From Diadema setosum (Eukaryota > Echinodermata > Echinoidea > Diadematoida > Diadematidae), in assembly GCF_964275005.1 (NCBI RefSeq), contig NC_092685.1, forward strand, positions 26,521,649 to 26,585,648: a DNA stretch of 64,000 nt, in the 5' to 3' direction. Positions 30,846 through 45,899 of this stretch are shown piece after piece (positions within the stretch are counted from its first letter, which is position 1; the number at the start of each line of letters is the position of its first letter). The notes beneath the pieces were generated by a model, which ran no database searches, was not told the origin of the DNA, and saw only the letters and a program-made list of their open reading frames with translations. The position numbers were made by a program, and so were the translations under genes.

Positions 30846-31360
30846 TCAGAAATACGTTGTAAATGCTTCGAGCTCAACAGTTGATGACTCTTCGGTAGCA
30901 GAAATGGCTTCTGTTCTTCTCCTACCCATACATCTGACACGGAGGGCGCACAATCCCTTGGAAACGGCCAGAGCCAAGATCACTGCCGAGGTTGCACCAA
31001 CCACGCTTGCGGCCGCGATGCCGGGATAGTTTTCGTAGTCGAGAATAGGGGAAATGTAGGGGTTTCCAAAAGGGTCCGTTCCCCCAGCAGCCCAGTAGAT
31101 GACAGTGAAGAGCAAGTAGATGATGAGGTAGAAGCCTGGGTAAATTGCGTGCACGAAGCGGACGACGATCAGGGTGAGAAAGATTTCGATGATACAGACG
31201 ATGGTAGGGAGGATATCTACGCTAATATAGACTATAATAAAAATCGGTAGCTTTACAGAAATGACATAGTATACGCCATACCAAAGACCTCCGGTTACGA
31301 GGGGGCAGGAAGCGATGGCGATGTTAAAGAGACACCACTGAATCTGGTACCGAACTTTGT
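30846..31360 (-). CDS. Exon 7: Rolling stone domain, remaining helices and C terminus
   Basis: Acceptor GATACTTTCAG|ACAAAG, phase 1. VRYQIQWCLFNIAIASCPLV is helix 3, then a long pair of helices through IFIIVYIS and FLTLIVVRFVHAIYP. The family signature YWAAGGTDPFGNPYI with SPILDY follows, then a last helix (GIAAASVVGATSAVILALAV). A basic C-tail (RVRCMGRRR) and an acidic end lead to the stop at 30846. Confidence 0.85.

Positions 31361-45899: not shown

Follow-up and report, generated by a model that had tools for sequence, protein, structure and literature searches.

A probable immunoglobulin receptor-Rolling stone fusion gene in Diadema setosum and the recurrent family to which it belongs

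Can an immunoglobulin (Ig) receptor and a multi-pass Rolling stone (Rost) domain be products of a single gene? The question is raised by a 64,000-nucleotide stretch of the genome of the sea urchin Diadema setosum (the window; C1:26521649-26585648 of the 912.68 Mb assembly), for which the original prediction described seven minus-strand exons with paired splice sites and compatible phases, read as one 570-residue frame in which two Ig domains and a helix are joined in frame to Rost. Rebuilding the spliced frame reproduced this structure, with 7 minus-strand exons, 1713 nt and 570 residues plus a stop codon, GT..AG at all six introns and mutually compatible splice phases (Table 1). The best explanation as a whole, which we consider probable, is a seven-helix Ig-Rost receptor with a front cassette that is joined to different tails in its relatives and a non-catalytic Rost tail. 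One gene would encode an Ig ectodomain of the V-C type resembling that of butyrophilins, the single-pass helix that carries it, a cytosolic linker, the six-helix Rost domain and a cytosolic tail. The exon structure, its recurrence, the loss from fused copies of the start codon of Rost-only genes, and the constraint on codons are observed or directly supported.

The gene model and its family

That the fused gene is real is very probable from its sequence, and the fusion is backed by independent annotation, by paralogues, by a second species, by start codon loss in fused copies and by codon constraint. The NCBI predicted D. setosum protein P0002 (445 residues) is identical, letter for letter, to residues 126-570 of the window protein and contains the joint between exons 4 and 5 (39977 to 39697), so this doubted joint was also made by an independent annotation. 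The signal-peptide and V exons that P0002 omits are both found at 2 further loci, L039 and L040. The ratio of nonsynonymous to synonymous substitution rates (dN/dS) between the window and L040 totals 0.50 over five exons (signal peptide 0.62, V 0.35, C 0.44, transmembrane [TM] 0.82, linker 0.74), and that between the window and L041, with the C exon left out of the comparison, totals 0.67 (TM 1.45). For the last Rost exon, dN/dS is 0.45 against L010, 0.44 against L011 and 0.41 against L012.

Table 1. Exons of the Ig-Rost gene and other features of the window
Feature	Position	Strand	Content	Phase (in-out)	Remarks
Exon 1	45899-45827	minus	start codon and signal peptide MDKRSVLFLLSILIASLFCGAIAQ	0-1	also in L039 and L040; not in P0002
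Exon 2	41785-41486	minus	Ig V-set	1-1	Pfam V-set 45.9 bits; dN/dS 0.35 vs L040; not in P0002
Exon 3	40916-40575	minus	second Ig domain, C1-like	1-1	C1-set 20.9 bits, cut-off 21
Exon 4	40102-39977	minus	single TM helix and juxtamembrane K/R	1-1	helix in the P0002 model, at low confidence there
Exon 5 (linker)	39697-39567	minus	VSEESSPTIETT and first Rost residues (MDFEDESRKWYS...)	1-0	59 homologous exons in the genome
Exon 6	35580-35355	minus	Rost TM helices 1-2	0-1	IYLPVW where Rost outside the Diadema expansion has I(Y/F)(L/M)T.W
Exon 7	31360-30846	minus	Rost helices 3-6, YWAAGGTDPFGNPY, tail, stop	1-stop	Asp at the place of His155
Repeat pair, intron 1	44520-45310		about 100 bp with GTAGATAACAGAAGATGTCGCATGAAACCGGCAGAG twice in opposite orientation, beside TA repeats		seen by eye; resembles a small inverted-repeat transposable element
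Open frame	54588-55631	plus	presumably a piece of a non-LTR retrotransposon reverse transcriptase (motif)
Open frame	57334-58024	minus	presumably a piece of a non-LTR retrotransposon reverse transcriptase (motif)
Open frame	4491-5267	minus	258 residues, presumably related to heparan-sulfate-type sulfotransferases

Ig-Rost is a recurrent gene family in Diadema and not a single oddity. Among the 49 protein matches listed, all or part of the C domain, helix, linker and Rost set is present in D. setosum P0001, P0002, P0003, P0004, P0007, P0009, P0015, P0017, P0019, P0021 and P0022, and Diadema antillarum P0016 carries C-TM-linker-Rost. Searching other proteins for the combination, as the original prediction had proposed, thus found it again in D. 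setosum paralogues and in a second species. V is joined to Rost without a helix in P0020 and P0058, and the models P0018, P0023, P0059 and P0063 are incomplete or unusual. At the DNA level the exon order is signal peptide-V-C-TM-linker at L039 and L040, V-V-C-TM-linker at L041, V-C-TM-linker at L043 and C-TM-linker at L044, with splice phases at all of these loci that agree with those of the window gene. The paralogue at L041 has two V exons in tandem upstream of its C exon, and the NCBI model P0001 has a further V-like stretch after Rost.

The Rost part, used as a genome query, gave 139 exon matches scored among 219 candidates, mostly in a cluster on C4 (38.76-40.65 Mb) and on scaffold C25; others lie in the window, at another place on C1 and at a few more distant sites. 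The linker exon gave 59 matches. Scaffold C25 (1.14 Mb) carries exon matches as in part of the C4 cluster but in reverse order, and the linkers of L057/L058 and of L071/L072 are identical. This arrangement suggests that C25 represents an alternative haplotype, left unpurged, of one section of the C4 Rost cluster, in which case the counts overstate gene number, the copies are not independent, and some genes annotated separately by NCBI may be alleles.

Protein searches with the whole model, the Rost part and a 16-row alignment found Ig-Rost in Diadema only. These searches required shared 5-residue words, were limited in length, and in two of the three only the candidates with most shared words were scored; finding no Ig-Rost outside Diadema by such word-based searches does not establish absence elsewhere. 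Rost without Ig was found outside Diadema in Lytechinus pictus, the brittle star Amphiura, Exaiptasia, Plutella and two further records.

The linker exon and the origin of the fusion

The linker exon is where the two halves of the protein meet, and 32 of its 59 loci were compared (L049-L078, which make up 30, plus L042 and L048). A TM exon lies on the same strand no more than 1.5 kb upstream in 15 of those 30, and the splice signals of these TM-linked copies are largely intact: the acceptor AG is present in 14/15, the GT after the linker exon in 15/15, and a phase-1 donor in 12/15 TM exons, the other 3 (L054, L062 and L063) being matched only in part. In Rost-only copies the linker is contiguous with an upstream coding stretch that reads ATG ACA TCG GAA GGC AGT CCA GTA TCG or near (MTSEGSPVS). 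Aligning the 32 loci revealed a gap of 14 bases (13 in L054) that removes this ATG in every one of the 15 TM-linked copies, the gapped stretch corresponding to ATGACATCGGAAGG or near in the Rost-only type. A candidate explanation by point change of ATG to ATC was rejected on this alignment because the upstream stretches share the gap. The gap is present in 19 loci and absent from 13; 4 of the gapped loci (L067, L068, L069 and L078) have no TM exon within 1.5 kb. An open in-frame ATG is found in 10 of the 13 ungapped loci (L060, L070-L075, L077, L042 and L048), while the remaining three lack an open start: L057 and L058 run from MTSEGC into a stop, and L061 carries GTG.

These data bear directly on a reading in which the Ig receptor and Rost are encoded by two adjoining genes whose exons are at no time joined by splicing, Rost being translated from an internal Met of the linker exon. 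This internal Met stands in the window within ACCATGG, the stand-alone Lytechinus Rost protein P0057 begins at the matching place (MNEEEASRKWYS), and read-through of exon 4 meets a stop after 22 codons. The internal Met is, however, kept in only 4 of the 15 TM-linked copies (window, L050, L054 and L076) and is replaced by Leu, Ile, Val or Pro in the other 11, the upstream ATG stretch is lost in all 15, and the 11 whole linker codons upstream of the internal Met are open in all 15. The N-terminus of the copies that have lost both starts would thus plausibly come from the Ig exons only. The dN/dS of the linker codons is 0.48 before the internal Met and 0.25 after it. NCBI models, moreover, join these exons in both Diadema species. 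Two separate genes, once considered as the principal account of the locus, were rejected after this comparison of linker exons and can now hardly be entertained.

A related alternative keeps one locus and gives it several products, a short-tailed Ig receptor made when intron 4 is retained and the full Ig-Rost protein, with splicing setting the balance. Read-through after exon 4 would yield VSQRGVVTCFSLFIRLFVCLLACFLH and then a stop, and short-tailed family members (P0010 and P0012) are predicted; such a dual output is unlikely.

For the single fused gene, the splice phases suggest how the joint could have arisen. The V, C and TM exons are all phase 1-1, so the phase-1 donor of the TM exon could be joined to a site in the initial coding exon of a downstream Rost gene. 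In the proposed route, that donor would have come to use a CAG|T within this exon (MTSEGSP|VSE...) as its acceptor, after which the old Rost start would have been removed by the 14-base deletion. The stand-alone D. setosum Rost protein P0051 (L048) is basal to the Diadema copies on a tree with Lytechinus outside; no Ig exon was found in the 5.6 kb preceding its linker exon, and it does not have the gap. Since this basal copy is ungapped, the gap is read as a deletion in the fused line, and its sharing among copies suggests one origin of the fused linker.

Topology, tails and function

The window protein has a V-set domain well above its Pfam cut-off (26 bits; Table 1), with Cys and Trp present in the translation, and a Rost domain (PF21534) at residues 331-532 that scores 53 bits against a cut-off of 26.8. 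Of the two Ig domains originally described, the first thus passes its threshold, and the second is C1-like with a score just under its threshold; paralogues P0045, P0043 and P0013 pass the C1-set cut-off and P0028 and P0029 miss it. Predicted models of Rost show six long helices in both P0057 (predicted local distance difference test, pLDDT, 77) and P0002 (pLDDT 59). With segments set by hand, Lys and Arg charges follow the TM helix, precede Rost helix 1, and recur in the segment that joins helices 2 and 3 and again in the tail; the GGTD loop carries none. This pattern fits an outside Ig part, a cytosolic linker and a cytosolic tail.

Foldseek with P0002 returned butyrophilins in the top rows, followed by IgG Fc and major histocompatibility complex chains among others. 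The likeness to butyrophilins (BTN2A1 and BTN3A1) lies in a V-C ectodomain with one helix, but the overall structural scores are low (TM-score 0.15-0.18 by query length). Many butyrophilins typically carry a B30.2/SPRY domain, and Pfam returned none for the window protein. The six-helix domain is shared with Drosophila Rolling stone (rost, PF21534), whereas the six Rost proteins recovered from outside Diadema measure 255-293 residues and have no Ig part.

Related Ig fronts carry other tails. An Ig-C-TM front is joined to NACHT in many Diadema proteins (P0025, P0030-P0036, P0038-P0041, P0044 and P0046-P0049); a conserved CGWNPCWRRP stretch behind the helix often makes the link to the NACHT-type domain. 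Five others (P0045, P0026, P0027, P0028 and P0043) have a P-loop GTPase-like tail with the motif G..SAGKS.LINSL or near, PF01926 being above its cut-off in P0045 only among three such proteins scanned. The window protein itself has no NACHT among its Pfam matches, and tblastn of the NACHT part of P0038 against the window was empty at E 0.01. Diadema would thus have a receptor family in which one Ig-TM front is joined to Rost, NACHT, GTPase or short C-terminal modules, the Ig part binding a microbial, self or cell-surface ligand on coelomocytes or other cells. A described system of this kind is AjNLRC4 of the sea cucumber Apostichopus japonicus, whose Ig part is reported to bind microbes and which promotes phagocytosis (PMC8699970). 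Its NACHT tail is like that of the Diadema cousins of the window gene; its inside part is given as NACHT, with two transmembrane stretches in the protein (PMC8699970), whereas the window protein has the six-helix Rost domain. The NACHT and GTPase tails on related fronts, together with AjNLRC4, make an immune-type receptor likelier than a muscle-type fusion receptor, and by this analogy the window protein is rather more likely than otherwise to be of the immune type.

The Rost tail raises a separate question of chemistry. Thr75 and His155 are kept in 7/7 Rost proteins outside the Diadema expansion (P0051 included), and the window protein (P0002) has Pro and Asp in these places; across the expansion rows, window protein included, Thr is kept in 0/23 and His in 5/27. 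The Thr/His pair of Rost outside the expansion may match the catalytic pair of AIG1/ADTRP. We take the catalytic residues of AIG1 to be T43 and H134, the equivalence of the Rost Thr75 and His155 columns with them being unproven. AIG1 and ADTRP, atypical Thr hydrolases, and TMEM164 are related to Rost by sequence only below threshold: PF04750 scores 16.2 bits in P0057 against a cut-off of 24.5, and 1 of 21 members matches at E up to 1. The Rost alignment set against a Diadema AIG1-like piece with hhalign gave a probability of 0.1 %, which is not significant; two His residues were superposed and are not counted as a test. Foldseek with the Rost model returned nothing under E 0.001, and TMEM164 was singled out by a second-look aligner only. 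No solved relative of Rost was found by sequence, K2P channels at E 0.28 being at chance level.

It is distinctly improbable that the Rost part of the fused protein is still an AIG1/TMEM164-type lipid enzyme through which the Ig part, on binding its ligand, would steer local changes in lipid or the fusion of membranes: the window has Pro/Asp, the expansion has largely lost the pair, and the sequence link to such enzymes is below threshold or not significant. Because Thr and His are both absent and the same front also carries NACHT or GTPase tails, the favored reading is a receptor for recognition whose Rost tail is non-enzymatic. Taken by itself, the absence of enzymatic activity in the Rost part of the window protein has about an even chance of being correct from these residues; such a Rost domain would act as a membrane module that assembles partners or lipids. 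The coupling of recognition to membrane remodelling that was first proposed for this protein stays conjectural and is weakened by the same two observations. A broader reading joins several claims, namely that an Ig V-C-TM cassette of phase 1-1 has been attached to varied effectors, that in the Rost branch an ancestral multi-pass AIG1/TMEM164-type lipid enzyme, having lost its nucleophile, was recruited as a membrane-embedded module for signalling or scaffolding, and that ordinary Rolling stone is a Thr-dependent lipid hydrolase or acyltransferase; as a joint proposition it is doubtful.

Several observations weigh against the fused, non-catalytic receptor as a whole or against parts of it. P0002 begins in the second Ig exon, so that the signal-peptide and V exons are missing from the NCBI model of the window gene. 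At L039 the C exon holds a stop, and at L040 the linker acceptor is TG instead of AG (spliced over all the same in NCBI model P0003), so some copies are probably dead. Such stops and lost sites, in a family that is large and duplicated, are what would speak for the window copy being a decaying, unexpressed duplicate as well; this is very unlikely, as the window copy is open across seven exons, its sites are intact and its dN/dS values show constraint. The wrong frames of the linker codons before the internal Met give dN/dS of 0.57 and 1.58, the first near the 0.48 of the coding frame, so that this ratio alone proves little. The window linker exon retains the internal ATG in a good start context, and a second, Rost-only product is thus possible. 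The immune role is drawn from family resemblance only.

Fused and unfused copies are, in addition, intermixed on the Rost-domain tree, at odds with the single gap. This tree holds 23 proteins (13 fused, 7 Rost-only Diadema and 3 from other animals), leaves out incomplete or unusual models (P0018, P0023, P0054, P0058, P0059 and P0063 among them), and has many weak forks; it requires 6 changes between fused and unfused, at least 2 of them forced by starred branches, and 85 of 500 shuffles were as low. A clean single origin, favored by the shared gap, is therefore not seen on the tree, and the shared gap on a mixed tree makes later loss, gene conversion or exon exchange likely.

What the Ig-Rost family offers

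The original prediction knew of no described protein with this architecture, and none was met in the literature searched here (listings, abstracts and passages), in which no description of an Ig and Rost domain combination was found. Within that literature, Rolling stone with immunoglobulin and echinoderm returned nothing, Rolling stone with sea urchin returned papers whose titles and abstracts did not concern the gene, and neither Rolling stone with AIG1 nor TMEM164 with AIG1 and active site returned anything. Genes of the Ig-Rost class nevertheless recur in two species of Diadema. They give a base-pair view of how a receptor could gain a multi-pass tail, through an acceptor inside a start exon and the loss of a start codon, and unfused sister genes in the same cluster serve as controls for that gain.

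Drosophila rost is reportedly needed for myoblast fusion, a result credited to Paululat in 1997. The Thr/His comparison offers a starting point for work on Rolling stone biochemistry, and Thr-dependent lipid chemistry in ordinary Rolling stone, if true, would provide testable chemistry for a myoblast-fusion factor. For the urchins themselves, the Ig-Rost family may have a role in defense. A scuticociliate causes mass mortalities of diadematoid urchins (PMC12865139), and an expanded family of putative recognition receptors in these animals is for that reason of practical interest.
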